DNA of 48,278 nt from positions 1 to 48,278 of the forward strand of contig JAIPKD010000016.1 of assembly GCA_021733835.1 (NCBI GenBank), read 5' to 3'. Position 1 is the stretch's first letter. Each line of letters begins with the position of its first letter. Of the stretch, positions 5,864 through 32,190 are shown one piece after another. The notes beneath the pieces are model-generated. The model saw nothing but the letters and a program-made list of their open reading frames with translations. It was not told where the DNA came from and did not search any database. Position numbers and translations under genes: made by a program. This DNA comes from Verrucomicrobiota bacterium (GTDB lineage Bacteria > Verrucomicrobiota > Verrucomicrobiia > Limisphaerales > JAIPKD01).

Positions 5864-8800
5864 CACAACCCCCGACCTCCAAGGGACGCAATACGTATCC
5901 GGAAAGGCTTCACTTCCAGCTTTCCTGTCGCTTCGTTGAGACTTGGACCGATGGAGTAACATTCCCCTTTCGACAGACTGGCAAACTTGTCCATCCAGTC
6001 GGCCGCTTTGTCTCCCGTAAGCATCGCCGCTATTTCAGCATAAGTGCGTATCTCAGTATCAGCCGGCCTAAAAAAGAGTTTGTGTGTAGCATTGAACAAG
6101 CGGTCCCTTTCGTCGCGTTTTAAATTACTCATGATCTGGGTAGCGAGAATCAACGAGAAGCCGAATTTCCGCCCCTCCCGAAGCAATTGTGAAAGCGGAC
6201 TTTCCTCGCGGTGATCGAGGTTTTGCACCTCATCAAGCACAACTACGCGTGGGGACGCCGGGGTCCCTCGGCTGCGATAGAACCAATAAAGATCAATAAG
6301 CGAAAATTCCGTAATCAAGCGGGCCGCGTCCCGGGCAAAATTGGCTAATTGTATGATGTGACATCGGGACTTCGTATTAGTGAAAAGCCGTTCCCAGCTT
6401 TCCAGCTCTTCCTTCCCGAAAGGGTCCTGGTCAAGAAATGGTCTGATTTTGCTGATTACGCTTCCCGCCGAGGTTGCAATAGCAACACCTTGTTCCGCAA
6501 CTCCTTCCAGGCAGGGGATCAGATCCTGCAAGGTCATCCCCCACTCACCACCGGATTCTATGCCAGCTTTGATCGCTTGGTAAAGAGCCGACCTCTGCTG
6601 GTCTCCAAAGCTGTATACTTCAGAAAATACCCCCGCGACCCGCTGCGCCGTAGCCGAGGACTTTTCCAAAAATGACTCCTCATCTATTTCCTGAATTTGC
6701 TGACGAAATGGGTTTATTGGCAGCGGTTCACGCTGAACGTAATGTTGGCGGGGATTCAGTTGCCCTGCCAGCTCAGGTTCGAGCTGATTCTTCATGAAGC
6801 CGTTGGTGTAGTCGACAATCAGAGAATTCTGCCCGAGTTGTCCGAGTTCGCTTAACAGGCATTGCACCGTGTATGTCTTTCCCATACCGGACGTGCCAAA
6901 TATCAACATATGGCGGTTAGACAAATCCGGATGGCCAAACTCCCAGTAAACAGGCCTCCCGCCCCGCACACTGTTGCCCAGCAACACTCTGTCCGGGATT
7001 GTGGTTTCGTTGACTTCCGCATTTTGCTGATCGTCAGCCAATTCACCTCTGGCGGTAGACAATGACGGTTCGGGCCCTGGACTGGGGCCTCCCCCACCAC
7101 CTCGCGGTGGACGGAGCGTTCCTCTCTTATCTTCCTCGCCACCTGATTCGTCTTCTTCGTCTTCGTCTTCCACACGAGGAGGCTTGGATACCGACGCCTC
7201 ATTCCGAGGTCTGCTTTCAGGCCAAGGCATTTCCTGCCCCTCGGAACCTGAGCATATTCCCCGTACAAAGTCACTTCCTGCGGCGACCACACCTGCATCT
7301 ATCTCCTTGCCATTAACAGGGAAAGACCAAGTGCTTTCCAACTCAATACAAGGTTTCACCTGGTCAGTCCAGAGCATCAGCACTGATGCGCGCCATTCAA
7401 CGGAATAATCACCGTCAACCAACCGCTCCAGGGCCCTTAGTGTATCTCCCTGAGAGCGTCGGGTTATCTCTGCTTTGCTGGCGATCAACCGGTGAAGCTG
7501 CAGCCACCAGTATCTCTGGTCTGGTCTTAGGTCTTCCCGCTTTGCATTATCGTAACGGGGCAAAAAGACTGCGGCCAGATGCTGCAGACCGCTTTCAATT
7601 TGAAGTCTGGCTTTTTCAAGATGTGCGTCCGAAGTTTTTGCCAACTTGCACTCGATGAGGCGAAGATCCAGGTGAATTCGGCCGTCCCCTCCCACATGAG
7701 TCACCATCCACAAAAGGTCCGGGCGTGAATCTGTCTTCGCTGAGTCAAACCAGTGATGGTACGCGTCAAGAGAAACAAGATTGTCGCATAGCGCATTTCT
7801 GTTGTTAACAAGAACCTTCCTGCTAATGCAATAAGCCATGAAGTCGCGGATGTATTGGCCGATGCCGGTTGCGCGGACAAGGGACAAACCCGAGAGGCGT
7901 CGAGCTTCTTTAATGACACTCTCCGCCACGGTTTTGTAATCATTGGGGTCCCACCCTGGATAGATTTCATTAACCGACGCAGAAAGGCGGTGATTCACGT
8001 CTGAAAGGTGAAATTGTTCTGTAGAAATTGTGTAGTTACATTCGCCATGGGATCCCACCCCCGAACCAAAACCAATGATTTCCCTAGCCTTCTGTCCAGG
8101 GGACGGTCCTACGTAGATGAGTCTTTCATCGATATTGGGGTCAATGCAGACCACCCATTCTGCGCGTTTGTGGAGTGCATTTACGACGTCCTGCCACGGT
8201 GCATAGTCGCCAAAGCCAAGTACGACATGGTGAGCATTTTGTGGTGTCCCTCGGTTCTTCAGCCTCGCCATGAGTTCCGTATGCATTGCGCAAATCCGGA
8301 ACTGCCGATTGCTCAGTACTCTTGACCTTTGAAGCTCTTGGCCGGGATTTTTCAATGCACAAAACGGCTTCTCCAGGACAGGGAATTTCAGCGTCCTTGT
8401 AGTCACGTCATAATCGTCCACCTGTTCAAACGCATTTCCATCTATACCGGCACCAATGAATCCATTAAGAAACGCCACATCTACTTGAAGCCCGTCGTCT
8501 ATGATCTGCACAAACTGTTTATAGTATTCCTTTGATTCGACAATGCGGTGAGCAACGGAAAGATGAACACGCCGATACCGGGCCAGTGATTCCTGTGTCT
8601 CCGCGGACTCCCATCGTTCCTGCCACTGTGCCATCCAGCGGGCAACGCCTGCATCATCGGTGGATTCGGTGAATACCGTAACCGACATGGCATATTTCCT
8701 TGCATTATCGGTTTGCGCGTCACAAACGAACTGAAGAAATTCGTCAATGGCCGCAATGACAGGTTGGATATCTTCATTCTGATACACGGCGATGCTCAAA

Positions 8801-11199
8801 CCGTCTTCGGCGTGCGGATGGAGTTTATAGTAATCCTTCAGCACCTGGAACATTAAAGCCGACTCTCGGCTCTCACGGAACATGTCCGCATCACTTATGC
8901 TTTCGTCCTCGGTATCTTCATACCTGAGGAGTAAACGCGTTGTAAGTGACGCCTCCATATCTTTGGGGCTCCCGATTCTGTGAATGAGCGATTCCCCTCG
9001 AATGGTAGTATCCAGCTGCAGGTCACGCGGATGGCCTTTCAACAGCCCTGTCAAAGGCATCTGCATCTGTGCAAGGTCAAGATAATTCTGCCACGTCTTG
9101 GCTCGGAACGCCCTCCAGTCTGGCGAGCGCAATTCGGCCACCGCAACCGAACTGAACGCCTTCAACAGGTAAAGTATATGCCCTTCCAGCATTTCAATCA
9201 ATGCAGGGTGTAGAACAGTTACCACACCGGATGGCTCAAGCCCCTCCCATACCCATCTGGCTCCTTCAGCCGAACTACGCGTCTGAATAATAAGAAACGC
9301 TCGGAATAGCGGTGCCGCAAGGCAACTATCCCCACACTCGTCTTCACTAATAAAAAAGCGGCAAACCTCCTCGTAAGCGCTTCTGAGTTTTTGCCAGCTA
9401 TCACGTAGTGCAGCGTGCAGCCCTTTTGCCGCAGCTTCCTGCACGAATTTATCATACCTGAACGCCAGGGCTTCCGCAGGCTTCAGCAACGGATCTTGAG
9501 AATCCAGCCCGTCTGCATCCAGCATGTTCAGTAAAAAACTTTCTTCTTCCTGTATGGAACTCTCTTCTTCCTGTATGCAATGACGCAAAACGCGGGTTGC
9601 CTCCTCAGAGTCATTTGCCAGCATAAGTTCCTGATAATATGGAACATTGACGACCGGAAGGCAGTATCCATCCGATTCGTTGATTGCCTTGACGGCCCAT
9701 TGAAAGAGCTCATCTGCGACCCTGTACGGGTGGGTTTCCGGCATGCGCCAGGCAAACTTGCGGATCACGGGTGCGTCCAGGCTTTCGCCCGCAATACTTA
9801 TGATGAACTCCAGGCGTGGTTCCGCAATGCTGGAATACTGGCAGTTGATCTCGCGCGTCTCCAGTGCCGCTTGCACTGGAAGGGATGTCTCTCGGTCCTC
9901 TGATAAAGGTATCTGGATATATTCTTTAAGAAAAAAATCAACTCCTCCCAAAAGGCGGATCAGATAGTCTCGTGCCCGCTCTGTACAATCTGCGGGTGAC
10001 TCGCCGTCACAGTCGTGCTTGAACACGCAATCCTTGGAATAACCAATTTCAATACGTGAAATGGCTTCATGAGCAAAGCACCCCTGATCGGCCGCCTTCG
10101 TTTTAAAATCGCCCAACGTGGTCCAAAGCCCGGTCAGTATTGCCTCAATTGGACTGCCAGATAACTTTCGAGTGGGATTTGGCTTTTTCTCCTTTGGCTT
10201 CTTGTACCCAAGTATGCGATCACGCACAGTCACAAAATCGCACTGCATCAGCGCATCGCGAGACGCAGCATCCGCCGAAGACAAATACCGTTCAACTGCA
10301 TCGACAAATTCGCGATCGGAGGCGAATGGCAAACGCTCAGCCTGGCCAAACAAGTCTTGTTCCGGATCTTTCTCGTTTGAGAAATAGTTCTCCTTAAATG
10401 CGTTAATTGACTTGAGTGCCTTCTTGCGGGCTTGGTCTTCGATGTAGTCGTTGTAGGAAAAGAACCCTATTGCACTGTCAAGATACGGACCAAATGATTT
10501 TCTGCCTCGCAGATTGTACCCAGTGAATAGAGGCAAATTAAAGCGGCCAAAGCTGTCGAGAAGCAATCTTTCCGCATCTCGTCCGTCTTGCACTGACGCA
10601 AAATTAATGTCTTCGAGTAAGTTGCTGATTTGCAGAAAATCTGCAAGCCCTTTGTCAACCAAGGGACATAAAATTTGATCGAAATGTTCCGGAGTGTCCT
10701 TTTCCGAGGCCACATGCGCCTTATCAAGCGCCGCCTTCGACCAAGACGCAAAGCTTTTTTTCAGCATTTGATGCCAAACGGTCTGATGGTCACAGTGGTG
10801 AAAGTCCGCTAATCCTGCCGCATCCGTGATCCGGTCCGTGCCTATCAGCAATACAATAATCGGCTTGCTGACGCCGGCGCCGGCATTCCTGTGGCTTGTA
10901 AGATTCCCGGAATAATCACGCCACTCGTCGCGTATTTCCGCAAGCGTTGCTTGAACGGTTTCGTCAAACGACTTTTCCCATTCTTCTTCCCATAGCTGTC
11001 GGGCAATCTTGATTACTGGCCTGGCAAGCGACTCCTGCTCAAGACAGTAATCTTCTAATCGCCCGCACAATTCGGCAGTCGCGCGAATCGGGATCGAAGG
11101 CATCATAAATAACAACCGACCTCCGGTGCCTTCTTCAAGAAAGTAACTGCTTGATTGCCGGATTATGTGATCTACGATTGTTTGAACATAAAATCTCAT
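5863..11199 (-). CDS. DptH-like protein: PD-(D/E)XK nuclease motif plus HerA/FtsK-type ATPase
   Basis: This 1778-aa protein fits the DndH/DptH type of phosphorothioate-dependent restriction factor. Residues 1 to about 1000 carry no motif I recognise. Around 1010-1030 is the segment WVVCIDPNIDERL. A nuclease-like core follows, with D1161 in PDLLW and E1183-C-K1185 in LIECKLA, the D...(D/E)XK spacing of restriction-type nucleases. An acidic and glycine/proline-rich linker (about 1340-1380) leads to the HerA/FtsK motor: Walker A GTSGMGKT at 1435-1442 and Walker B VVVLDEVQNL with D1656-E1657. The likely role is DNA translocation coupled to cleavage. I chose the ATG at 11199, which overlaps the previous gene's TGA and has AAGGAG upstream; a GTG one codon earlier is possible. 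DptH proteins are of similar size. Confidence is high for the motor and moderate for the nuclease. Confidence 0.8.
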   Translation of the reverse strand: MRFYVQTIVDHIIRQSSSYFLEEGTGGRLLFMMPSIPIRATAELCGRLEDYCLEQESLARPVIKIARQLWEEEWEKSFDETVQATLAEIRDEWRDYSGNLTSHRNAGAGVSKPIIVLLIGTDRITDAAGLADFHHCDHQTVWHQMLKKSFASWSKAALDKAHVASEKDTPEHFDQILCPLVDKGLADFLQISNLLEDINFASVQDGRDAERLLLDSFGRFNLPLFTGYNLRGRKSFGPYLDSAIGFFSYNDYIEDQARKKALKSINAFKENYFSNEKDPEQDLFGQAERLPFASDREFVDAVERYLSSADAASRDALMQCDFVTVRDRILGYKKPKEKKPNPTRKLSGSPIEAILTGLWTTLGDFKTKAADQGCFAHEAISRIEIGYSKDCVFKHDCDGESPADCTERARDYLIRLLGGVDFFLKEYIQIPLSEDRETSLPVQAALETREINCQYSSIAEPRLEFIISIAGESLDAPVIRKFAWRMPETHPYRVADELFQWAVKAINESDGYCLPVVNVPYYQELMLANDSEEATRVLRHCIQEEESSIQEEESFLLNMLDADGLDSQDPLLKPAEALAFRYDKFVQEAAAKGLHAALRDSWQKLRSAYEEVCRFFISEDECGDSCLAAPLFRAFLIIQTRSSAEGARWVWEGLEPSGVVTVLHPALIEMLEGHILYLLKAFSSVAVAELRSPDWRAFRAKTWQNYLDLAQMQMPLTGLLKGHPRDLQLDTTIRGESLIHRIGSPKDMEASLTTRLLLRYEDTEDESISDADMFRESRESALMFQVLKDYYKLHPHAEDGLSIAVYQNEDIQPVIAAIDEFLQFVCDAQTDNARKYAMSVTVFTESTDDAGVARWMAQWQERWESAETQESLARYRRVHLSVAHRIVESKEYYKQFVQIIDDGLQVDVAFLNGFIGAGIDGNAFEQVDDYDVTTRTLKFPVLEKPFCALKNPGQELQRSRVLSNRQFRICAMHTELMARLKNRGTPQNAHHVVLGFGDYAPWQDVVNALHKRAEWVVCIDPNIDERLIYVGPSPGQKAREIIGFGSGVGSHGECNYTISTEQFHLSDVNHRLSASVNEIYPGWDPNDYKTVAESVIKEARRLSGLSLVRATGIGQYIRDFMAYCISRKVLVNNRNALCDNLVSLDAYHHWFDSAKTDSRPDLLWMVTHVGGDGRIHLDLRLIECKLAKTSDAHLEKARLQIESGLQHLAAVFLPRYDNAKREDLRPDQRYWWLQLHRLIASKAEITRRSQGDTLRALERLVDGDYSVEWRASVLMLWTDQVKPCIELESTWSFPVNGKEIDAGVVAAGSDFVRGICSGSEGQEMPWPESRPRNEASVSKPPRVEDEDEEDESGGEEDKRGTLRPPRGGGGGPSPGPEPSLSTARGELADDQQNAEVNETTIPDRVLLGNSVRGGRPVYWEFGHPDLSNRHMLIFGTSGMGKTYTVQCLLSELGQLGQNSLIVDYTNGFMKNQLEPELAGQLNPRQHYVQREPLPINPFRQQIQEIDEESFLEKSSATAQRVAGVFSEVYSFGDQQRSALYQAIKAGIESGGEWGMTLQDLIPCLEGVAEQGVAIATSAGSVISKIRPFLDQDPFGKEELESWERLFTNTKSRCHIIQLANFARDAARLITEFSLIDLYWFYRSRGTPASPRVVVLDEVQNLDHREESPLSQLLREGRKFGFSLILATQIMSNLKRDERDRLFNATHKLFFRPADTEIRTYAEIAAMLTGDKAADWMDKFASLSKGECYSIGPSLNEATGKLEVKPFRIRIASLGGRGL

Positions 11200-12878
11200 C
11201 ACGTTTCTCCTTCACCCTCGAACGGATTCTTAACCAGAGAACAGGAATCTGAAAGGCGAATCAACATCCCAGAGGTCTCAAGCATATTCACCAGCCACGC
11301 ATCTGATTCAGTCCCAATGGTCGAGAGACGTCTAGTACCGTACCATTCGCAGGCCGCGCCAATCCTGTTGCTGTCCACCGCGAACGCGTGTCTCACATAC
11401 AGCAAATGCTTGAAGGTCTCGTACGTGATCCGTTTGCCTGGCGGCACAAGTGAGAGAACCAAACACCTGAGCAGTTTATCAGAAAGTACGAAACGCGCGC
11501 CCTGGCCTTTCCTGGGAACGATCATGCCAATACGCTTGGCAAGTGTCAAAAACAGCTTATGGCCATAACGCCGATCCGCTTCTCTGTATGCTTTCTCTTC
11601 TGTCCATGTGGGATCGTCAGACTGTTGAAGCGGGAAATTCTCCAGGACAGCGGGATTTCGGATTGCGTCATGAATCATCCTCTGGATCGTATCAACACCT
11701 CTGCGGGATATTTGTTTTACAGTGTCGTTGGCTCCCTCGGGATCTGAAAGCGTAATCACATAGCCCAGGGGTGCGGCTGATGCACTGCGGTCTTTAACCC
11801 AACTGACATGACGGGCGCTCTGTGCTCCTAGGCTTCGCAGAACCTGGAGGGCACACGCTGTCTCCAAAAGCTCCAACCGCTCGACGGGATCAATCTTCGC
11901 TTGACAAAGCCACCGAACCTCCATGGCAAACAAATAACCCTCTCGCCAACTTTCGGTTGGACACCAGCCGCAAACAGTAAAGCGCCTATCCTCGGCCTGG
12001 CCATCAGAATGTTTTGCCGTTTCCTTCTCTATCCCGGAATCAATAAACTCAGCCAGTTTGCCAACGGCTGAAGGACACTCATCAAAAACAGCGTTGATCC
12101 TCTCAGAAAGATCGGCGTGGAGCATGGCAGGATCACATTCAGCCTTCGGAATTTGCATGTTGGCGCAGCTATTCCATTGCAGGACATGTTCTTTCTGCTG
12201 ACGAAGAGCATTGCATATCTGCAAGTACAAGAGTTCGCCACCCCTGGCAAGGAATCGGTGGCGCCCAAGAGAGAAAAAACGAAGTAACCGATCCGTTACT
12301 TCTGCCCATGTCTCTACTTCATCTCTCTTTGCTTGGGTTTCATTCCATAAGGTTTCTGCTGCAAGCATCTCGCGACAGAGCGGAATGAATGACTGCGCGC
12401 ACCATGTCCGAGATCCCCCGACACCTTGAAAGCCAAGAAACAGGTTTTCTATGGCTTTGAGCATCTCATACCGGTCACCTCCCTGGGAAGTGATCATTTT
12501 CTGAGGCGTAGACATATCTTGAATCAATTTTCTATAATGCTGCCGGTGAGATTCGTGCCTTGTTTCAAGCTTCGATGCACCCAGAAATGAGAATAACTTC
12601 AAGTTAAGCCGTGCTTTGGCAGAGTATTCGAAGCGGCTGCCTTCAGGCCAATCTCGAAGAATGGCCAACGGGGGAAACGGCAGTGATTCATCGAATTCTT
12701 GAACCTGTTCGCCCGCAACGCGTTTAATGGAAGAAGCCACCAGCAGCAGTTCAATCAACAATTCCGTCACGGTCTGATCCACAAAGAAACGCCGGCCGAA
12801 AGTCTGAACGGCAGGATTGCGGTCTTCTCCATCTTTTTGAATCAAATTCCTTTGTATTGGTGGGAAATGATCAGGCAT
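11199..12878 (-). CDS. Unrecognised 559-aa protein in the DptG/SspG position of the defence island
   Basis: I do not recognise this family. The protein is soluble with no signal peptide or membrane segment. It is largely helical, with several short Trp/Arg-rich stretches such as VCGWCPTESWREGYLFAMEV. Residues about 430-520 (YGHKLFLTLAKRIGMIVP, then LLRCLVLSLVPPGKRITY) look like a winged-helix DNA-binding region. A strong ribosome site (GGAGGTGA) sits just before the ATG at 12878, which overlaps the upstream gene by 8 bp; the downstream gene overlaps it in turn. The F-G-H gene order makes a DptG-like or SspG-like accessory role the natural guess. That rests on position only; I see no sequence motif to prove it. 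Confidence 0.6.
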   Translation of the reverse strand: MPDHFPPIQRNLIQKDGEDRNPAVQTFGRRFFVDQTVTELLIELLLVASSIKRVAGEQVQEFDESLPFPPLAILRDWPEGSRFEYSAKARLNLKLFSFLGASKLETRHESHRQHYRKLIQDMSTPQKMITSQGGDRYEMLKAIENLFLGFQGVGGSRTWCAQSFIPLCREMLAAETLWNETQAKRDEVETWAEVTDRLLRFFSLGRHRFLARGGELLYLQICNALRQQKEHVLQWNSCANMQIPKAECDPAMLHADLSERINAVFDECPSAVGKLAEFIDSGIEKETAKHSDGQAEDRRFTVCGWCPTESWREGYLFAMEVRWLCQAKIDPVERLELLETACALQVLRSLGAQSARHVSWVKDRSASAAPLGYVITLSDPEGANDTVKQISRRGVDTIQRMIHDAIRNPAVLENFPLQQSDDPTWTEEKAYREADRRYGHKLFLTLAKRIGMIVPRKGQGARFVLSDKLLRCLVLSLVPPGKRITYETFKHLLYVRHAFAVDSNRIGAACEWYGTRRLSTIGTESDAWLVNMLETSGMLIRLSDSCSLVKNPFEGEGET

Positions 12879-15800
12879 CAGTCACCTCCAAACGGTCTCC
12901 GCCGACAGCTATCATTTGTCGCTTGAACTCGTGACTCGTCTTCAGTCGTACGAGCATGAGGTTGTGGTCAGTACCGGTTCCGCATCTTGCCAGAATCTGT
13001 CCTTTGAAGCGTTCGAGACGATCCGTAAAACAGGCATCCAGACACTCTCCGATCTCACCTTGATTCCGCGACATTACATAGTCAAGAAACGGTAGTTCTA
13101 GTTGTAGATTCAGACCTTCCAGCTTGTTTCTTCCCTGCAAAACAAGCTGGCGTCGCAGGCGTCCTGTTCCATCGGGACGCGGGACCAGCCGCAGCGAGAG
13201 ATCGTCCTCCGCGACTCGCGCCAGCACAACCTGGGCGCTCTGGCGAATTTCATGCGAGTGCCGACACAGGGTAATGAAAAGCTCATCCACCCGTTGACCT
13301 TCGGGCAGCCGTACGCCGGTGAAATGCTCTTGAATGACATGCAGGATTCGCCTGCGGAGTAGGTTCGACTCATTCAATGAAAGACGGAATTCAGGCGCCT
13401 GCCATTTGCTGAAGTCCACCGCCATGTTCGAATTCAGAAATGTACGGACAAAAACAGTATCCCCTTCGTCAAAACGATTTAGGAAGAACATCATCCGCCG
13501 CACCTGTCGCCGGGCGTCAGATGGTGACAAGTCGAAGGAGTTTGCCACTTTTACACCGCAATGCCGCAAGGTCCCGTATTCGTCGAGACAACCGATTGCG
13601 TTGATTTCAAAATCGTCGCCTTGGCGACTGCTTAACCAAAGGTGCCGTTCCCAAACGGGTGCAGTTCGCACTCCAAAGTCTTGCGAACGGGCCGCGTTGA
13701 TTCCCCGCAATTGCAGCGCGGCCCCGTCATCGACCCGTCCGTTATCTCCGAAAAAGCGATTAAAGAACATAAACTCCGTAATCAACGGACGTGAGGCTTT
13801 CTTCGCCATCTTACTAATGTCCTTGTAGTTAAGTCCGGAAGTTATCATATATGCCAGGTGTGCGGAGAACTGCCGTAGAGTCAGGCGAGTTCCGTATTCG
13901 TACATTCTGCGATATGCCATGAAAAGTCGTTCGATCACTGTCTCAAAGTTATCGCGGATCAGGCAGACATTTCTGTAGATTGGACAGCTTTGCTGACAAT
14001 CGCGGTCCACACAGGCATCCCAAAGCTCATTTTTGACCATGCGCGTGAAAATCTCACGTGCGAGGCAAAGGTTGTCCATCAATGAAAGGTTTATAACCGT
14101 GAAATGAGTATCTCTGTACTCCCATTCCTTGGGAGTCGCCGAGTCCATTCGTTCCAATAGCTCACTCTCCAGCGTGAGTTCATCGCCTCCAAGGTTGCGT
14201 TCATTGAATTTGAACGCATCCAGCAGAGTGCCTGTGTTCGTTATGAAGAGAAAGCGGCGATCATTATCTTCAATTGCTTCCTCTATCAATGATTGCCTTT
14301 CATCGCGGTGCCATTCGCTGAAATCCTTTATTATGGACAACAATTTTTTCTCAGGTCCCGAGACATCCGTGCGTGGTTCAATCTCATGGTCAATCGGCGA
14401 CTCCGGCGGCAGGCCGAGCAACTGCTTGTAAAGCTCCAATCCAATTGTCGATTTCCCATCCCCTGCGTGCCCCGTGAGTATTACATGGCGCCTTTTCTTG
14501 CCGCACAGGATCTCGCTGATGGTCTTGGTTAGAGGATGAGGAACATGAATGCGCCCGAAGTAGGAACTGCGAGCCTGCGCCTCGGCAAGCGCATTCTCGC
14601 TGGCTGCTGAACGCGAATGCAGAGAGTTCAGGTAGGCAACAAATGGATTGGGATGGACGCCTTCAGGAGGCAAAGGTTCAACTTGAGGGATGGGGGCTGG
14701 GGCTTCCTCCTCAACAGCAGGTTCTATATCCGCCGCTTCCTTGGTTTTGGCCCCACCCTCTTCAACCGTCAGCTCGTTTAATGCATTCAACATTTCATTA
14801 GCGGCGCCGAATCGGTTCTCCGATTTAGGCGCTGTTGCCTTGTTGAACCAGCCAGGAAGCCCTTCTGGGAAATCTGCAGAGAGTTGGACATCTATCTCCG
14901 CACTCGGACGCACGCCGTAAAGCCATTCGTAAAGGGTTACTCCCAACGCATAGAGATCTCCATCCTCACAGTATTGACGGTCTTCTCCCAAGTGAAGATC
15001 AGGCGCCACGTAGCCGGTTGTTCCCTCGTAAATCTGAATCTTTGGTATGCCGGGGCCCTCAAGGCGGAGGGCAGACCCGAAATCGATTAGAACGGGGCGG
15101 TCCCGATCTGTCAGAAGCACGTTTTCTGGTTTGATGTCGTTATGCACCAATGGCCGCTGCACATCATCATCCATTGCGGTATGCAGAGCCTGCACTGCGT
15201 CAAGAAGGTACTCCGCCATCCTCTTGAAACGCTCAAAGTCCGGACGTTCTGCATTATCGATCTCGTCGCGCAGGCTTTTATCGGATGACCAGTCAAATGA
15301 GATAAAGAGGCGATCGTCGGACCACGATCCATAGTTCTCAACGGTGACGAGCGAGGGGTGGTTGACAACGCCTGCGGCACGATACTCGTTCAGCACTCTC
15401 GGTAATTCGACATCAAGGTTAAAAAGCTTCAAAACCACATGCTTTGCCTGCGGTCCGAGCGCATGGTAAATCTGAGACTGTGCCCCTTTTTCCAGGAACC
15501 CCCAAATCTCGTATAAGGCGTGTCTGTCACCGGGTTCCAGCTTTGCGTTTGGGGATACCGAAGACGTAACGGCAGGCTCTTCATGCATGGCTGCAAGGAC
15601 CTCGCCAACGCTTGCGGGCCGTTTGCTAGGTTCAGCCTGCACCATTTGAACAATGAGATCCTGGACCTCCTCAGTGACATTCTTCTCTTTCAGGCGTGCG
15701 AGATGCCTGTCTGCAAGCTCCCCCCCTATCCCCTCAAGTTCAGTCGAGCAACCGAAAGGCTTCTCCCCGGTCAACATTTCGTACATTAGGACGCCGACAC

Positions 15801-17433
15801 TGAAAATATCTGCGGACGCTTCGGGAGTGACCCCTCCCTTATATATTTCAGGTGCCATGTAAGGAGTACGCTTGAGCTGTGAAGCATCGGGTATAACGGT
15901 TGTACGGTCATCCTCCAACTGGAATGATAAGTCAAAATTCATCAGCTTCGGGATACTGCCTACAAGCAGGACATTTTCAGGGGACAATGCCCGGTGTATG
16001 ACAAGTCCTCTGTGCAGGGCACTGAGTCCCGCCAATATTCCAGCGGTCAAATCCCTGGTTTTTTCCCAGCGCAAGGGTGATTCCTGTTGCAGCACGTCCC
16101 GCAGGGAGCCGGTTTCCGACCAGTCGCTTCCTTCGACAATGAAGTTGTTCTCATTGGGGACCGACCATACTTTGATTATATTCGGATGGTCTCCGATTTT
16201 GGCAACCGCATTCAGCGTTGCCGTGGCTTTCTCATGGAACTGACGTTTTTCATCGCGGTCGTCGGTGGCGGGAGGGAAGAATATACGGAGCCGGCTCAGC
16301 CGCTTATATCGGACATCTGTGCGCCTGGCAATAACTTCGGCCCGGTCAGTATGCTGGTAAAGTCGTTTGACAATTTCATAACCCGGAAACTCAAAGTCCC
16401 GCGGCCTTGAAGGAGCCTGCAATTTACGCAGGAAAATCACAAACTGGTCGCAATGATGGTCTGACAGAGTGCTGCCATTCTGCTTGCGCTGATGCTTGAG
16501 GTAATCAATAAAATGATCGACACGGGCAAAGGTGGGATTATGCGCTTTCGTCTGCGGGGTCGTAGCACCTTCAACATCGGCATTCGGATTTGTCAACACA
16601 ACAGCGGATTCAAACCATACAGACGGGAAATGGGGAAACTTCCTCTCGAATAACCCTTTTAACAATTTCGCCTTACGATTGTTGACTTTGTGTGGGTCGG
16701 GTTTGTAAAATGAGTGGTTTTGAATCCAGGAATTTGGTTTGACCTCGATGAGTCCGCTCCAGTGTTTCAACTCAAGGACATAAATCCCAAATTCTGACAC
16801 AACAACGGCATCCGTTTCGAAATATCGGTTGGATTGCGGATCATGAATCTCAAAGTTGGTAAGAACTATACCAAGGCGGTTGTCTTTGATCCTTGTCCCC
16901 AATTCTTTGAGAGCTCTCTCCTCGTGTTGATATAGCGAATATTTTGCGTACTCTTCTTGAACCTGCGATTGGCTGTCATGTTTTGCTTTCTTGCATAGCA
17001 GGATCAGCCGTACCAATTCGTCCTCGATCGCCGCTGCCTCCGCTGGATTCTTCATCATGTGGAAGACACTTTCGTCGAGCAGAGCATGGGAAACGAGTTG
17101 GTTTAAATCCCCGGGAGAACCAACCGTCTTTGTCTTTGCTAGTTCTTGTTCTTTCCCTTCGGTTGCCACTAGCCGCCAGAAGCTCGAATTGCCAAGATGG
17201 AAAAAGGGAGCGTGGGGGCGATTACGGTCACCTTTACCTCCATATTCATCTAAGATTTTCCTAAAGGCTCTTTTGAAATCCTCATTAAAGCTAATCGAAG
17301 CTTTGGTTATCTTCCCATCGCGAACCAGTTGCAGTACGGCCAAAAGCGCGACATACTTATGAGGCTTTATGCCTCTTCCCCTCTGTGCAACACCGATATC
17401 TGCAAGTTCTTCTAGGAATTCTCTAAGGTTCAT
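12871..17433 (-). CDS. Fusion protein: sulfur-binding-like domain, NERD nuclease, pseudokinase, Ser/Thr kinase and DptF-like ATPase
   Basis: The 1520-aa product carries five modules. Residues 1-140 follow the pattern of HNH-endonuclease N-terminal and ScoMcrA-type DNA-sulfur-binding domains: GIKPHKYVALLAVLQL at 21-36 and PHAPFFHLGNSSFWRL at 73-88. Residues about 166-330 are a NERD domain with D208 and E221-L-K223. Residues 351-617 are a protein-kinase fold without key residues: HRALSPEN at 480-487 and NFD at 499-501. Residues 638-860 are a second kinase with K669, catalytic D766 (HNDIKPEN) and DFG 784-786 intact. A proline/acidic linker (about 890-930) leads to a P-loop ATPase with GHAGDGKST at 988-996 and a four-cysteine cluster near 1140-1156, reminiscent of DptF. 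BREX PglW also joins NERD and kinase. I chose the ATG at 17433; a TTG at 17445 would add four residues. Confidence 0.8.
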   Translation of the reverse strand: MNLREFLEELADIGVAQRGRGIKPHKYVALLAVLQLVRDGKITKASISFNEDFKRAFRKILDEYGGKGDRNRPHAPFFHLGNSSFWRLVATEGKEQELAKTKTVGSPGDLNQLVSHALLDESVFHMMKNPAEAAAIEDELVRLILLCKKAKHDSQSQVQEEYAKYSLYQHEERALKELGTRIKDNRLGIVLTNFEIHDPQSNRYFETDAVVVSEFGIYVLELKHWSGLIEVKPNSWIQNHSFYKPDPHKVNNRKAKLLKGLFERKFPHFPSVWFESAVVLTNPNADVEGATTPQTKAHNPTFARVDHFIDYLKHQRKQNGSTLSDHHCDQFVIFLRKLQAPSRPRDFEFPGYEIVKRLYQHTDRAEVIARRTDVRYKRLSRLRIFFPPATDDRDEKRQFHEKATATLNAVAKIGDHPNIIKVWSVPNENNFIVEGSDWSETGSLRDVLQQESPLRWEKTRDLTAGILAGLSALHRGLVIHRALSPENVLLVGSIPKLMNFDLSFQLEDDRTTVIPDASQLKRTPYMAPEIYKGGVTPEASADIFSVGVLMYEMLTGEKPFGCSTELEGIGGELADRHLARLKEKNVTEEVQDLIVQMVQAEPSKRPASVGEVLAAMHEEPAVTSSVSPNAKLEPGDRHALYEIWGFLEKGAQSQIYHALGPQAKHVVLKLFNLDVELPRVLNEYRAAGVVNHPSLVTVENYGSWSDDRLFISFDWSSDKSLRDEIDNAERPDFERFKRMAEYLLDAVQALHTAMDDDVQRPLVHNDIKPENVLLTDRDRPVLIDFGSALRLEGPGIPKIQIYEGTTGYVAPDLHLGEDRQYCEDGDLYALGVTLYEWLYGVRPSAEIDVQLSADFPEGLPGWFNKATAPKSENRFGAANEMLNALNELTVEEGGAKTKEAADIEPAVEEEAPAPIPQVEPLPPEGVHPNPFVAYLNSLHSRSAASENALAEAQARSSYFGRIHVPHPLTKTISEILCGKKRRHVILTGHAGDGKSTIGLELYKQLLGLPPESPIDHEIEPRTDVSGPEKKLLSIIKDFSEWHRDERQSLIEEAIEDNDRRFLFITNTGTLLDAFKFNERNLGGDELTLESELLERMDSATPKEWEYRDTHFTVINLSLMDNLCLAREIFTRMVKNELWDACVDRDCQQSCPIYRNVCLIRDNFETVIERLFMAYRRMYEYGTRLTLRQFSAHLAYMITSGLNYKDISKMAKKASRPLITEFMFFNRFFGDNGRVDDGAALQLRGINAARSQDFGVRTAPVWERHLWLSSRQGDDFEINAIGCLDEYGTLRHCGVKVANSFDLSPSDARRQVRRMMFFLNRFDEGDTVFVRTFLNSNMAVDFSKWQAPEFRLSLNESNLLRRRILHVIQEHFTGVRLPEGQRVDELFITLCRHSHEIRQSAQVVLARVAEDDLSLRLVPRPDGTGRLRRQLVLQGRNKLEGLNLQLELPFLDYVMSRNQGEIGECLDACFTDRLERFKGQILARCGTGTDHNLMLVRLKTSHEFKRQMIAVGGDRLEVTDA

Positions 17434-17449
17434 ATGTAGATCCAAAGTT

Positions 17450-18607
17450 TCAGGTGATTGAAAGTTTCTTCGTGAGCTTCTGGATTGTTTCGACTAGCTT
17501 CTCTGCCGCTATTTCAACTTCATCTATCGTGTTATACCGTCCCAACGATAAGCGCACCGTATTTCTTGCCATCTCTCGTGAGAGTTCCAACGCAAGCAGG
17601 ACATGAGAGGGTGATACGGCTCCAGATGTGCATGCAGATCCGTCACTGAAGCATACACCTCGTACTTGTGAAATTAGAACGCCAGCTGAAACCCCCGGCA
17701 CTGAGATGTTTGTCGTTCCTGGTAAACGGGATACTTCTTTACCATTAAGTGAAACACCGCTGAGCTTTTCAGTTAAGATAGACTCGAGTAGATCACGCAT
17801 CTCTGCCAGTCGCTTTGCATCGGAACCAACCTTCTGTTTCACTAGGTCACATGCAACTCCGAAGCCCACTATAGCCGGGACATTGACAGTACCTGGTCGC
17901 AGACCGCTTTCCTGACTTCCACCGTGAATTAATGGCGAGATTGTGCGTCTCGCGTGTCTATTCAAAAACAGGCAACCAATTCCTTTCGGACCATACGCCT
18001 TATGTGCACTAAAGGAAGCAAGATCGGCATGGAGATCACCGACAGAAACAGGAACCTTTCCCAACAACTGGACCGCGTCACAATGAACTAGCGCCCCTTT
18101 CTTATGAGCAATCCGCGCAATCTCGGTAACAGGTTGAAGTGTACCTATTTCATTATTGGCCCCCTGAACGGTAACGACAGCAGTATCTTCGTTGATAATT
18201 TTTTCAGCATCAGTCGGATTGACGACCCCATGCCGATTCACAGGGAGATAGTACACTTCTATTCCCAAATCGAGTAGTCGTGCCAGAGGTTCGAGCACTG
18301 ATTTGTGCTCTATCGAAGTGGAGACTATCCCTTTCCGCTTTGAATTGCCCCTTGTAAGGCCCAGAAGAGCCAGGTTATTTGCCTCGGTGGCACCACTTGT
18401 GAAGATGATCTCAGATGCGTCTGCCCCAATTGCACTGGCCACCTGATCACGCGCTTTCTCTACAGCCGCAGACGCATCTGTCCCAAATTCATGGGGACTT
18501 GCAGCATTCCCAAATGAATCGCTGAAAAATGGCAGCATAGCTTCTACGACTTCCTTGGCGCAAGGAGTCGTAGCATTGTAGTCGAGATATATGCTGCGGT
18601 TATTCAT
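17450..18607 (-). CDS. sspA: Cysteine desulfurase of the PT modification module (SspA/DndA type)
   Basis: This 385-aa PLP enzyme removes sulfur from cysteine as a protein-bound persulfide and would supply it to the PAPS-reductase-like partner SspD. The class-V aminotransferase core is complete: LDYNATTP at 8-15, H101 in EHKSV, D177, the PLP lysine K203 in SAHKAYGPKG, and the catalytic cysteine C326 in SDGSACTSG. It could equally be called IscS/NifS; the placement next to sspD and the absence of iscU or other Fe-S assembly genes indicate the PT role. I chose the third possible start, ATG at 18607, because it makes a 4-bp ATGA overlap with the sspD stop codon; starts six and three codons upstream are possible. 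The gene order B-C-D-A puts the sulfur donor after the other three. Confidence 0.88.
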   Translation of the reverse strand: MNNRSIYLDYNATTPCAKEVVEAMLPFFSDSFGNAASPHEFGTDASAAVEKARDQVASAIGADASEIIFTSGATEANNLALLGLTRGNSKRKGIVSTSIEHKSVLEPLARLLDLGIEVYYLPVNRHGVVNPTDAEKIINEDTAVVTVQGANNEIGTLQPVTEIARIAHKKGALVHCDAVQLLGKVPVSVGDLHADLASFSAHKAYGPKGIGCLFLNRHARRTISPLIHGGSQESGLRPGTVNVPAIVGFGVACDLVKQKVGSDAKRLAEMRDLLESILTEKLSGVSLNGKEVSRLPGTTNISVPGVSAGVLISQVRGVCFSDGSACTSGAVSPSHVLLALELSREMARNTVRLSLGRYNTIDEVEIAAEKLVETIQKLTKKLSIT

Positions 18608-19428
18608 AAGTGACATACGGTGCAACCCATTTCCTCATCTTCGCATCCGGTGCCAAAAACCTCTCCGAGAGACGCATTACCGGCGAGCTCTGCCTCGCGT
18701 GCTCGTCTTTTCTTATATTCAGCCTTGATCTCAGCTACTCTCTCGGGTTTTGCGAGTTCGGTGAGGCTTTCATTTTGGATCCAAGTGTACCTCTTACCGG
18801 AGACCGGGTCCGGTTTTTCATATTTCATTGCTTCGCGGAACAGGTCCGGATGCGTCTCCAATAACCCCACCCATTCGCGACGTTGCTGGTAAAAGCAGAA
18901 ATAGCAGCCGGATCGGGAACGCCATTCGTAGTAAGATGGCACCCCCAACCCGCTATCCTCCAGGATCCGAATTACATCGTCCCGCATCAGTCCGTCCTCC
19001 ACAAAGGGGAAGCGAGGTTTGATGTTCGGTTTAGTGGATATATATCCTTTTCTCTCAGGTTCGTCTGCACGAATCCCGACATAGCTTGTCACCCAATCTT
19101 CGCCGATATATCGCTCGTAGGGTACTATCTTTAAATACTCCGTACACCAACGTTGCTGAGGAGATGGAAGAAAGCCATTCCGTATTCTGAGCAAGTCATC
19201 AAATCCCATGCTACCGTTCTGAATCCGGGCAATTGGCTTGCCCAAAAAAACCTCAAGTTTGTCCAGATAGTCGTATGTCTCTTTCAATTCCTTGCCAGTG
19301 TCACAAAACACATACTCCATATCAGGAACACGGTCTCTCATATAGACTGCAAGAGCACTGCTGTCCTTGCCTCCCGAAAGAGCAAGTACATGACGGCGGT
19401 TCTTGGATTCTATTTCAGTACTACTCAT
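18604..19428 (-). CDS. sspD: PAPS-reductase-like ATP pyrophosphatase SspD (DndC-like)
   Basis: SspD/DndC proteins activate the DNA backbone or the sulfur carrier with ATP and pass sulfur on during phosphorothioation. The PP-loop SGGKDSS is at residues 18-24 of 274. Cysteines at C95 (RWCTEY), C175 and C178 (GCYFCFY), and C262, C269 and C272 at the C-terminus could hold an Fe-S cluster, as is known for DndC. The protein is about half the length of DndC and matches the shorter SspD type. I chose the ATG at 19428, which is preceded by GGTGAG and overlaps the end of sspC by 8 bp; a GTG three codons earlier is the alternative. A plain sulfate-assimilation PAPS reductase is less likely because the gene sits between sspC and sspA. 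Confidence 0.85.
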   Translation of the reverse strand: MSSTEIESKNRRHVLALSGGKDSSALAVYMRDRVPDMEYVFCDTGKELKETYDYLDKLEVFLGKPIARIQNGSMGFDDLLRIRNGFLPSPQQRWCTEYLKIVPYERYIGEDWVTSYVGIRADEPERKGYISTKPNIKPRFPFVEDGLMRDDVIRILEDSGLGVPSYYEWRSRSGCYFCFYQQRREWVGLLETHPDLFREAMKYEKPDPVSGKRYTWIQNESLTELAKPERVAEIKAEYKKRRAREAELAGNASLGEVFGTGCEDEEMGCTVCHL

Positions 19429-22400
19429 CTGTCTCACCGTTTTTCAGTTCACTAGCCAGAATACTAACTGCTGCGTTTACCACTCCAGAAGAAGAATCAT
19501 TCGAGATTCGACTAATTGAAGAACGCATCTGGTCAAGAAGTTGTTCTACTTTTTCCCGTTCCTGCGGATTTAGCGCTTCTAGGCGTGCAATTGCCGACTT
19601 CGACCCTTGGACATTTCTGCACGTCCTAGTAAATGTCACTCCAACTCTTTTCGCTGCTTTAGGGAAACGTGCAACGTCAGAATCAGACCAGCTGCGCGGA
19701 GGACGGTTTGCCACCAAGGCCAGCACCGCTTCGATGCCCTGCCTGTCGGGGTTCGTCTGAATCACTCTCCGCACAAATGCCAGCAGTTCAGGATCGGTAA
19801 TGGAAGGCTCAACGTCCACCGCGTCGGCCCGAAGTCTCTGCCAACCGGCCTCGCCACCTTGATATCCGCATGCGTCCAGCAGAGAGTCCCTTGCGTCATC
19901 CAATGTACTCACCGCTATATTAGCCCATGCCTGGAGATTCTCGTTCAGTTCATCGAAAAATGATTCTACGTGCTTCGAATTCGGAGCATCGTCCGAAAAA
20001 GGTTCAATGCCCAGAGCCTGAGGAGCTTCAACGAAAAGAAAACGTTCCGGGGATTTGGCCTTGTCGAACGCATCGCGCAGTTGCAGAACCGAGACGGGTA
20101 ATTGCTGGGTGCGCCAGGCAAATTCCGGCAATCCTTTCACCATTCGAAATAGTGCTTTGACCACCGGGACCGTTGCAGGCTTCACGTGAAAGCCCTTGGC
20201 CAACCGCTGTACCACTTTGGCCCGGCCACCCGATATCCTACTTCCCGCAAGAGCAAACAGCTCCGGTCTTCTCATCAGAACTTCAAACTCAGGGATTGCA
20301 GGCTCAGGAATGAACGAACCATCGCGATACAGAGTTGTCTCGTCAGGATAGGCCTTCATGAATGCACAAAGTATGAGTGGGTGGAGGCCGTCGATCAGGC
20401 CGAAAGGCGGTGCAACCAGTTCCGAGAAAAGTTCGTCCAGTGGGATCGGTTCCGGCTGACGGTCGAAAACCATTTCGCACAGATAATCCCAGCACGGCAG
20501 CAAATTATGGGTACGATCCTTGTTTGGCGGTTGTAGTTGCCACGTCCCGCCCTTGCCCTTCGAATGGATTTTCGTTTTCACGAGAAAGGATTCGTACATG
20601 CTGCGCTCTGGCGGAAAACCCTCGATGCCAAGCACAGCTTTCTCTGAGTTAGTCCACATCGCTTCTATCAGGTTACGCCTTGCGGCAGTAGCAGCAGATG
20701 AAAGAGAGCGCCTGCAAACGAGTTCGTTCCGAATTTTGGCTGCTTGGTTGTAGATTTCATCACACACAGTTGACAACAAATGAGAAACGGCGGCGCGGTT
20801 CTGCAGATTTCTCGCCTTTCCCATGTAGAACCACAGGCAGTTGCTACCGACAGGCTGCGGACGCGGGTCCAACAAGCCGTTCAAGGTTCTGTGCAGGAGT
20901 CGCTCAGCCTCGGTTATCCTGAGCGCAATTTCCCTTCTAGCAACCCTGTCATCTCGCAATTCCGGAGTATTGTCCCAAACCCAGCGCAGGGCGGCCAGCT
21001 CAGTAGCGGCCGAGCGGAGTTCGCCGATATCTTGCGGCAGCGCAAAGACGGTGGTTTTCTGATTCTTCGCATCTAGCGCTCTTTTCTTAAATTCCTGGGC
21101 GTCCGTAGATGATTCAGCTAGGCACACCACAATTTGTCCATCCGAACGTCGCCTGTCCTCAAAAGGAAAAGCAACATCACCAGGATCGTCGACATAAACC
21201 AAATCGAAGTACCGAAGTGCCCCAGTTTCAAAACTATGTCGCCGAGCAACCATGGGTCTTTTAACCAGATAACGCTGTACAATCGTCGCCAGTCGCGTCT
21301 GACGTATCTTCCTTTCGCCATCTGCAATACGTTCTTCAACGTCAATATCGCTTCCTTCCCAAACCCTATACGTCTTGTTGAAACGTCTATATACAATGAG
21401 AGAGGATTCTTGTAAATCCTTAATTCCTGATCGCGTTACCTCATCCAGTTTCTGCATATCATTAAGGCAATTAGATAGCACTGATTCGGTCGCGCGCAGA
21501 TGCGATACCTCGCCTAGAACACTCAAAACACCGATAGTTTTCACCAGTTGTCGGTGCATGTCGGTCAGACCTTCCTGCCGGTCAAGTGCATCTGAGGCTT
21601 CCAACCAACGACGTGCATGGGGTTGCCGGTAGAGTCCCGCACCGAAGTTCGTAGTGAAATAATCAAACAGATGCGACAGTCTGATTAGTTGTGGACGCTC
21701 AGTATCAAGAACGTTGGTTTTGAGAAAATACCGAAATCCTCCGTGTTCCAGACTGCTAAGATATGAAAACAGCGATCTCTCGTTTTGTGCAAAACGGCTG
21801 AATAAAATAGGCAGAGCAACTAGTGTAGTTGGATGAAGAGGAAAACAGCTACAGGCAATGTCTTCAAATTCAGCATCGGCCATTGTCGGCGGTTTTACGC
21901 CTGATTTAATTGCCGCTTTTGCCAGTTGTCTCAGCTTCTTTCTAAATTCAGAAAAAGAAGGGATAAGGTCATCTTTCAAGGTGATTGCTGAAGCAATCAA
22001 TCGCACTACCTGCTCCGTGGGTTCTTGGAATGCAATATCCGTGAATCTTCCCTGTATCTTAGTCCACTCCTGACGTGTCACAATATCCAGGTGCCGGGCG
22101 TACTCGTCAAAGCCTTGATGTAATAAGCCGATAAATACCAATGTATTGTCATCGCTGCGTGAAGCTAACTCAGCAATCTCCTGGATAATGTATACATCAC
22201 CTTTCTTCGAATCACGAGCAGCGTACTCGAACAGCTTTCCCAGCTCGTCAATAATGAGTACTGTCCCGGAGTATCCCGCTTCTCTTGCAGCCTCGCAAAC
22301 AGCAATAAGTTCTTCTACGATCTTACGACTATCCATCCCGAATTCTCTTTCGTCCGCTTCAAGATACTTTTTGAGTCTTGTCCCTATTACCCTGAGCTTT

Positions 22401-22855
22401 CTGCTACCGGATGAGCTGACAGAATCGGCGATACCCTGCAAAATACACTGAGTAGCGGGAACGCGTCTGGCCGTTATTAGGATAGAAAGGAAACTTTTCT
22501 TAGAGTCTTCAAAGGCTGAACATTCTGCCAGCGCTTGGGCTAAACCGGGCTCTTGTTTTTTGATTTGTCGAAGATATAAGTCACGCGTCTTATGGTCCGC
22601 ACAGAGTAAGCGACTCAGAAAAAGAGCGAAAGCTGATTTACCAACTCCGTACGGGCCGGTGAGCGTTAAAGAACGACATACCCCTTCTCCCTCCAAGCCA
22701 TCGAGTATATTACGAAGCGCTTTGCGTGCCATCGGCGTAACAATATAGCCGTTTGTCTCGGGATTAGGACTGTAATCCTTCTCCAGATTCACCGATCGTT
22801 GAAACCGCGTGGATACGTCAACGACTTCCGAAAGCATGTTTTTTTTCTCAGCCAT
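19421..22855 (-). CDS. sspC: Large P-loop ATPase SspC of the PT modification module
   Basis: This 1144-aa cytoplasmic protein has an ORC/CDC6-like AAA+ core at its N-terminus: Walker A GPYGVGKS at 67-74 and Walker B TVLIIDELGK with D203-E204. A helical C-terminal region of about 700 residues lacks recognisable motifs. SspC is the ATPase of SspABCD systems and is thought to help open or scan DNA for the nickase SspB. The gene follows sspB with a TGATG junction, so the ATG at 22855 shares a base with the sspB stop. A GTG one codon upstream is a weaker alternative. Genomic context (DUF4007 before, PAPS-reductase-like after) is what turns a generic P-loop ATPase into SspC. It does not resemble DndD, which is an SMC-like protein. 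Confidence 0.82.
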   Translation of the reverse strand: MAEKKNMLSEVVDVSTRFQRSVNLEKDYSPNPETNGYIVTPMARKALRNILDGLEGEGVCRSLTLTGPYGVGKSAFALFLSRLLCADHKTRDLYLRQIKKQEPGLAQALAECSAFEDSKKSFLSILITARRVPATQCILQGIADSVSSSGSRKLRVIGTRLKKYLEADEREFGMDSRKIVEELIAVCEAAREAGYSGTVLIIDELGKLFEYAARDSKKGDVYIIQEIAELASRSDDNTLVFIGLLHQGFDEYARHLDIVTRQEWTKIQGRFTDIAFQEPTEQVVRLIASAITLKDDLIPSFSEFRKKLRQLAKAAIKSGVKPPTMADAEFEDIACSCFPLHPTTLVALPILFSRFAQNERSLFSYLSSLEHGGFRYFLKTNVLDTERPQLIRLSHLFDYFTTNFGAGLYRQPHARRWLEASDALDRQEGLTDMHRQLVKTIGVLSVLGEVSHLRATESVLSNCLNDMQKLDEVTRSGIKDLQESSLIVYRRFNKTYRVWEGSDIDVEERIADGERKIRQTRLATIVQRYLVKRPMVARRHSFETGALRYFDLVYVDDPGDVAFPFEDRRRSDGQIVVCLAESSTDAQEFKKRALDAKNQKTTVFALPQDIGELRSAATELAALRWVWDNTPELRDDRVARREIALRITEAERLLHRTLNGLLDPRPQPVGSNCLWFYMGKARNLQNRAAVSHLLSTVCDEIYNQAAKIRNELVCRRSLSSAATAARRNLIEAMWTNSEKAVLGIEGFPPERSMYESFLVKTKIHSKGKGGTWQLQPPNKDRTHNLLPCWDYLCEMVFDRQPEPIPLDELFSELVAPPFGLIDGLHPLILCAFMKAYPDETTLYRDGSFIPEPAIPEFEVLMRRPELFALAGSRISGGRAKVVQRLAKGFHVKPATVPVVKALFRMVKGLPEFAWRTQQLPVSVLQLRDAFDKAKSPERFLFVEAPQALGIEPFSDDAPNSKHVESFFDELNENLQAWANIAVSTLDDARDSLLDACGYQGGEAGWQRLRADAVDVEPSITDPELLAFVRRVIQTNPDRQGIEAVLALVANRPPRSWSDSDVARFPKAAKRVGVTFTRTCRNVQGSKSAIARLEALNPQEREKVEQLLDQMRSSISRISNDSSSGVVNAAVSILASELKNGETDE

Positions 22856-31999: not shown

Positions 32000-32030
32000 C
32001 AACACCACTCCTGCTATTGGAATGCAAGCC

Positions 32031-32075
32031 ATGGGGTGCCGGCATAACGGAGATCGCGTAAAACCGGCGCCCCAT
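32031..32075 (+). other. Hairpin between the two cytochrome genes
   Basis: ATGGGGTGCCGG (32031-32042) pairs with CCGGCGCCCCAT (32064-32075), with one G-U pair in RNA and a 21-nt loop. No T-tract follows, so it is more likely a processing or stability element, or an attenuator, than a classical terminator. It lies in the 191-bp gap between two genes that appear to be co-transcribed. Confidence 0.45.
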
Positions 32076-32190
32076 ACAGCGATATCACCGCCTCCCCGTT
32101 CAATCGCGATTAATGGATATTTGTCCTTGGCTTCTCACTACAAAGCAGTACAATCATCTCCCAAAATCACAGTTCACGATAAGATAAGCA

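Follow-up and report, generated by a model that had tools for sequence, protein, structure and literature searches.

The window analysed here is a 48,278-nt stretch of a Verrucomicrobiota bacterium (contig JAIPKD010000016.1), and its subject is a minus-strand gene for SspF, a protein of the phosphorothioate (PT) modification and restriction system SspABCD-SspFGH, which serves in defence against phages. Five modules follow one another in one open reading frame (ORF): a sulfur-binding domain (SBD), a NERD nuclease domain, a pseudokinase, a kinase and the SspF core. A first-pass annotation had read this order from the sequence, and PADLOC, Pfam and NCBIfam placed the modules as it had proposed; the motifs it quoted, PHKYVALLAVL, PFFHLGNSSFWRL and GDGKST, are all present. 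Two starts are available, TTG at 17445 (1524 amino acids, aa) and ATG at 17433 (1520 aa), the latter with GGAT just upstream. Residues are counted here from the TTG; the first-pass numbers, counted from the ATG, are lower by four, and E221, K223 and D766 in that numbering correspond to E225, K227 and D770.

12871 to 17445, minus strand: SspF with five modules (SBD, NERD, pseudokinase, kinase, SspF core); ORF open and in place
16948 to 17427, minus strand: SBD, residues 7–166 (sequence, profile, AlphaFold2 model, Foldseek)
17356 to 17361, minus strand: sulfur-pocket H29-K30, equivalent to ScoMcrA H116-R117 (alignment; pocket roles from PMC6224610)
17206 to 17208, minus strand: sulfur-pocket P80, equivalent to ScoMcrA P165 (alignment; pocket role from PMC6224610)
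16591 to 16929, minus strand: NERD nuclease domain, residues 173–285 (Pfam E 3.5e-17; D212, E225, K227)
15556 to 16398, minus strand: pseudokinase, residues 350–630 (HRD reads HRA, DFG reads NFD)
14806 to 15540, minus strand: kinase with intact catalytic residues, residues 636–880 (Pfam and alignment)
12874 to 14661, minus strand: SspF core, residues 929–1524 (Walker A GDGKST at residue 995)

Residues 11–132 match the NCBIfam model NF045808 (PT-DNA_restrict) with E 5.8e-9, and in a single-sequence search of the PDB the N-terminus of the window protein alone retrieved SBDHga (8h0l) with E 1.1e-20. A profile of 32 SspF N-termini matched 8h0l with 1.5e-38, ScoMcrA (5zmo, 5zmn and 5zmm) with 2.7e-9 to 4.1e-8 and the SprMcrA SBD (7cc9, 7ccj and 7ccd) with about 1e-5; the seven distinct PDB sequences found were all SBD proteins, and one further chain was at chance level (E 0.54). 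Thirty of the 32 N-termini also matched NF045808 singly. When an AlphaFold2 model of the domain (mean predicted local distance difference test score 94.6) was compared with the PDB by Foldseek, ranks 1 to 9 were taken by SBD complexes with PT-DNA (E 2.3e-10 to 2.7e-2, four of them below 1e-3). NF045808, the PDB profile, Foldseek and the per-member matches rule out a chance resemblance. Every Pfam family found was confined to at most one of the 32 members, which may explain why the SBD in SspF is easily missed.

In ScoMcrA, H116, R117 and P165 line the sulfur cavity (PMC6224610). They align with H29, K30 and P80 of the window SspF, and across the SspF SBDs, counting rows with letters there, H is kept in 33/34, K in 34/34 and P in 36/36; the same degree of conservation is seen in a few Leu and Phe columns of the core. 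The SspF SBD has both its fold and its pocket H/K(R)/P in common with SBDHga (8h0l) and the ScoMcrA SBD (5zmo). Its base-reading loop occurs in at least two forms in 37 rows, a short one in 16, including the window, and a longer one in 21, of which five read R-F-T-K-K-R and the others similarly. The window loop aligns gap-free to that of SBDHga, which is said to be sequence-promiscuous. By sequence, modelled fold and pocket, residues 1–140 are an SBD, as the first-pass annotation had supposed; it had named a fold unlike SBDs or a missing sulfur pocket as what would speak against it, and we found the SBD fold and near-invariant pocket residues. We infer that the domain binds PT-DNA. The SBD profile revealed no second SBD in the genome of the window (92% complete). 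That the protein is a PT-dependent HNH enzyme was rejected: NF045808 gave 35.5 and 40.3 bits over the SBD part only, against a whole-protein cut-off of 180 bits. ScoMcrA and SprMcrA are HNH enzymes, whereas the window SBD is joined to SspF beside a PT writer.

At the other end of the protein, the module with GDGKST had been called an ATPase. Its P-loop stands, and the module is of the SspF/DndF type. PADLOC SspF matched residues 933–1235 (E 4.3e-30; both PADLOC SspF models shown cover the core only), and Rakesh et al. 2024 class the DndF/SspF core as a P-loop kinase (PMC10853773). Its PDB profile matches were all weak (E 0.04 or higher) and mixed, comprising adenosine phosphosulfate (APS), shikimate and HPr kinases, PhnL, an AAA+ ATPase and TnsC; Pfam gave nSTAND3, under its cut-off. 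A search of the core against plasmids gave no match.

A scan of genome contigs with the SspF core yielded at least 80 loci, and locus counts here and below are among the matches listed; the table omits L001, L002, L003, L004, L005 and L007, which belong to the window's own genome or to contigs that are the same as those of L016, L015, L025 and L033. Eleven of the 80 share with the window protein the block that runs from NERD through pseudokinase and kinase to the SspF core. A complete SBD precedes it in six (L010, L024, L027, L030, L031 and L032), which together with the window are the seven fusions with complete N-terminus and SBD, and four (L009, L022, L026 and L086) are cut by the contig end on the N-terminal side. 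The last, L087 from a Rhodopirellula metagenome-assembled genome, is cut at the other end and starts with NERD, without an SBD; no SspBCD lies within 7.7 kb upstream of it, and SspD is found elsewhere in its genome. Because the NERD-to-core order recurs in this way, the five-module fusion is no assembly accident, and an assembly error was ruled out as its origin.

In all 12 fusions (the window and the 11 others), NERD keeps D212, E225 and K227 and the second kinase keeps K673, E687, D770, N775 and D788, so the functional residues that the first-pass annotation had singled out are intact in the alignment. In the first kinase, the HRD Asp is lost in 9/12 and the DFG Asp in 10/12, as read by eye from the alignment. 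Pfam Pkinase matched two stretches of the window protein (E 5.1e-55). The NCBIfam model MAD6 (NF047741) covers residues 174–756 with E 2.3e-107 and 360 bits, and PglW (NF033442) reaches 174.9 bits; since these scores lie under the curated cut-offs of 460 and 990, neither is the identity of the protein. Both matches start after the SBD and stop before the SspF core. The NERD-kinase-kinase block is what the window protein has in common with MAD6 of MADS and PglW of BREX type 2, and it is closer to MAD6.

The first-pass annotation knew of no described SBD-NERD-kinase-DptF fusion. This novelty does not hold, since Rakesh et al. 2024 describe a DndF with successive winged helix-turn-helix (wHTH), NERD, inactive and then active Ser/Thr/Tyr kinase (PMC10853773). 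The module order is the same as here, P-loop core included, and the paper equates the SBD of HNH enzymes with a wHTH; its passages on this DndF do not identify the wHTH as an SBD and read it as a co-effector. The NERD-kinase-kinase-DndF arrangement has also been compared with PglW (PMC12839542). An undescribed architecture is thereby ruled out. A search of the open-licence PMC literature, mostly at listing level, found no published report of an SBD-SspF. Whereas the architecture is known, the identification of its wHTH as an SBD, that is, a reader domain, is apparently new, and so is the wide extent of SBD-SspF, mostly without kinases.

The published proposal leads to a possible, if doubtful, account of the N-terminal modules as suicide effectors that would act as a backup when the main restriction is blocked, with NERD cutting DNA, the kinase hitting proteins and the wHTH or SBD being a mere DNA anchor. 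Its co-effector part was put forward for this very architecture (PMC10853773), and the NERD residues are invariant in all fusions. It leaves unexplained, however, that few positions of the domain are as well conserved as the sulfur-pocket residues and that SBD-SspFs without NERD and kinase are commoner and, where this can be judged, accompanied by a PT writer (see below).

The gene is part of an island with the order sspB-C-D-A-F-G-H, in which all seven genes are adjacent, lie on the minus strand and have PADLOC matches, those for SspG and SspH spanning only part of the model. With sspB, C, D and A and sspF, G and H together, the gene content is that of SspABCD-SspFGH. Around sspF lie:

22855 to 23778, minus strand: SspB (DUF4007; PADLOC, Pfam)
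19421 to 22858, minus strand: SspC ATPase (PADLOC E 0, 1071 bits)
18604 to 19437, minus strand: SspD, phosphoadenosine phosphosulfate (PAPS)-reductase-like (PADLOC E 5.8e-113)
17450 to 18625, minus strand: SspA cysteine desulfurase (PADLOC E 4.5e-141)
11199 to 12878, minus strand: SspG (PADLOC E 1.3e-19)
5863 to 11202, minus strand: SspH with PD-(D/E)XK-like motif and HerA-type DUF87 domain (PADLOC, Pfam, alignment)
5012 to 5962, minus strand: X1, second SspB-like protein after sspH (Pfam DUF4007 E 2.3e-5, under cut-off)
700 to 4989, minus strand: X2, second, divergent SspC-like protein (PADLOC SspC E 1.5e-7 over 125 residues)

The nuclease-motor that had been predicted two genes downstream of sspF is SspH, whose D1162, E1184 and K1186 are kept in 69/69 aligned homologues; the PD-(D/E)XK-like assignment is our own. 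For the AlphaFold2 model of X1, the best PDB match was SspB (6lb9, E 6.9e-8), and 6juf was also found. Where SspH is present and the contig extends 9 kb or more downstream, X1 follows in 54/66 loci and X2 in 55/66, and the restriction arm may consist of five genes rather than three. In the SspABCD-SspFGH system of Wang et al. 2021 (PMC8092258), sspBCD, a cysteine desulfurase gene and sspFGH homologues stand side by side as here, and the Walker A of SspF and the FtsK-like end of SspH are common to both. The text of that paper presents a three-gene restriction cassette without X1 and X2, which the window adds, and its main text does not contain the words kinase, NERD or sulfur-binding. Outside the island, two multihaem cytochrome c genes lie on the plus strand at window positions 30506–33078.

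In 387 surveyed genomes of the same phylum, the window's own included, a search at E 1e-60 gave five further SspF relatives, all 751–801 aa long and with the SBD joined straight to the SspF core. A quick tree was built from 80 core sequences, comprising the window, L006 and 78 listed loci (L046 and L087 were omitted for their incomplete cores). On it, 38 rows carry an SBD, 41 do not and one (L086) is not judgeable; the positive rows include a remnant judged by eye (L026), a split SBD (L018), a separate ORF (L038) and partial SBDs at contig ends (L008, L009, L017 and L022). The SBD-SspF records are labelled as Thermodesulfobacteriota, Verrucomicrobiota, Kiritimatiellota, Lentisphaerota, Cloacimonadota, Elusimicrobiota, Acidobacteriota, Chloroflexota, Pseudomonadota, Bacillota and others, of which single labels may be wrong because most records are metagenome bins. 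The short form is also present in Thiothrix lacustris DSM 21227 and Allochromatium palmeri DSM 15591, and the full five-module form in the complete genome of Desulfopila sp. IMCC35008. In Chromatium weissei, the SBD is an ORF of its own directly upstream of sspF (L038, positions 9424–9990). In L018 (SspF ORF at 7396), a separate piece upstream of sspF retains a remnant of the beginning of an SBD, i.e., a split or broken fusion. In L085 (SspF of 751 aa), the core stands at the start and is followed by about 200 extra C-terminal residues, which are not an SBD by profile.

Only 10 of the 38 SBD-positive rows carry the NERD-kinase cassette. The SBD belongs to SspF and not to the kinase; with 28 rows lacking a kinase, PT reading cannot generally depend on one, and we ruled out that the SBD primarily serves it. 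These counts bear on the interpretation in the first-pass annotation, according to which the protein would convert the PT status of DNA into a phosphorylation signal: occupancy of the SBD would switch the kinase, and phosphorylated SspF, SspG or SspH would license or block the nuclease-motor. The intact catalytic residues and the pseudokinase partner in 12/12 fusions are in line with such a switch, as is the union of SBD and cassette in one chain in seven. A phage kinase that phosphorylates DndFGH disrupts its defence, as cited in PMC11662687; this shows that phosphorylation can control complexes of this kind, and no more than that. However, the SBD evidently acts without a kinase in the 28 rows, the cassette occurs without an SBD in L087, the MAD6 and PglW models have the same block, and no substrate is known. 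The earlier interpretation is partly supported; a PT-gated kinase seems unlikely to us, and a relay from the SBD to the kinase is speculative.

We then called the presence of a PT writer for the tree rows. A row was counted as positive with at least two of SspB, SspC and SspD near, and as negative only if 5 kb or more of upstream sequence was available; 15 rows were not judgeable. Local SspBCD accompanied all judgeable SBD-positive rows (27 with, 0 without) vs 24 with and 14 without among SBD-negative rows (Fisher p 1.7e-4). Allowing positive calls on a short flank favours such calls and affects one SBD-positive row (L069), without which, when 5 kb upstream are demanded of every row, the count is 26/26. 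L047 and L083 were called positive on partial SspB/SspC matches, and L050 negative despite SspA and SspC matches. SspFGH-X1-X2 without an SBD was seen in six Bacillus-type records (L055, L057, L073, L079, L081 and L082); neither SspD (at E 1e-5) nor DndC was matched in their genomes, and these FGH modules are seemingly without a PT writer.

At genome level, the SBD profile matched 35 of the 387 same-phylum genomes and SspD (E 1e-30) 14. SspD was present in 6/6 genomes with SBD-SspF, which belong to six families, in 2/29 genomes with other SBD proteins (G140 and G260) and in 6 of the remaining 352; DndC exceeded its cut-off in one of the 35 SBD genomes (G086, within the 29). A clear HNH-like motif follows the SBD in 15/24 non-SspF SBD loci, by a rough pattern that also matches loosely in 4/6 SspF loci. 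The same domain is mostly found apart from a PT writer unless it is joined to SspF, and is then beside one. PT-cutting SBD-HNH genes should avoid PT writers, according to the reasoning in PMC7461809, which also names one such gene beside a dnd cluster. On a contig of G086 (C153, L107), a gene of the SBD-HNH type and another ORF with an SBD lie within a few kb of a full DndC, an exception to this avoidance.

Taken together with published reports, this setting makes a self-reader the best reading of an SspF SBD beside a writer. In Vibrio anguillarum, SspFGH is toxic and damages DNA lacking PT, its toxicity is relieved by SspBCD and not by DndBCDE, and the mechanism of discrimination is left open (PMC8092258); the avoidance argument of PMC7461809 applies to PT-cutting enzymes, and DndI leaves, or is driven off, PT-marked DNA (PMC11662687). 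The polarity would best be read as the reverse of that of SBD-HNH enzymes. On balance, we consider it somewhat probable that the window protein is the SspF of an SspABCD-SspFGH system whose SBD reads host PT as "self: spare", with the cassette as a second tier. The neighbouring SspABCD would write PT on host DNA and the N-terminal SBD would read the mark, which in this context most likely means that the DNA is to be spared. Where the SBD finds PT, the SspF-G-H complex, perhaps with X1 and X2, would be kept inactive or let go; if the DNA is unmarked, the SBD would remain empty and SspH, as translocase and nuclease, would damage the DNA. The MAD6/PglW-like cassette would probably form a second tier, as checkpoint or backup effector, switched on by the core or by the DNA state. 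Both the sign of the PT response and any kinase role are what we infer.

Several observations weigh against this self-reader. SspFs without an SBD often stand beside SspBCD (24/38 judgeable rows), so not every SspFGH can rely on the SBD for discrimination, and another PT sensor must act there; among Gammaproteobacteria other than V. anguillarum, L034, L035, L040, L045 and five Psychrobacter rows lack the SBD. SBD presence changes only four times on the quick tree, and a test of SBD vs PT writer on independent pairs, which were too few, was not significant; common descent may therefore account for the association seen across loci. A PT writer does occur in three of the 29 genomes whose SBD proteins are not SspF. 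In PMC10853773, the added N-terminal domains are taken as co-effectors and DndG is suggested as the PT discriminator. Finally, since SspE is activated by PT (PMC8092258), the opposite sign is compatible with the sequence as well: binding of PT by the SBD would turn the complex on, as in SBD-HNH enzymes or SspE, and other signals would choose the target. The SBD enzymes treated in PMC6224610 and PMC7461809 are mostly PT-dependent nucleases and SspE needs PT for its activity, but the PT writer next door and the toxicity of SspFGH without PT in the one tested system (PMC8092258) speak against PT-triggered activation, which we consider quite unlikely.

The self-reader can be carried further, to a generalization that we rate as improbable: SBD-SspF would be the PT-mark reader that has been missing from the FGH arm, with reversed polarity, and its long form would gate a Ser/Thr kinase and NERD acting in cis. 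The long form, if this is true, would be, to our knowledge, the first case of a DNA-backbone modification controlling a protein kinase. Both PMC7461809 and PMC8092258 leave open how FGH modules tell sparsely PT-marked self from foreign DNA, and the former notes that the protection given by incompletely penetrant PT is not understood. A sulfur-pocket domain on SspF offers a direct handle on this discrimination, via its three pocket residues. If the self-reader is true, one reader domain would carry opposite meanings next to the writer and away from it.

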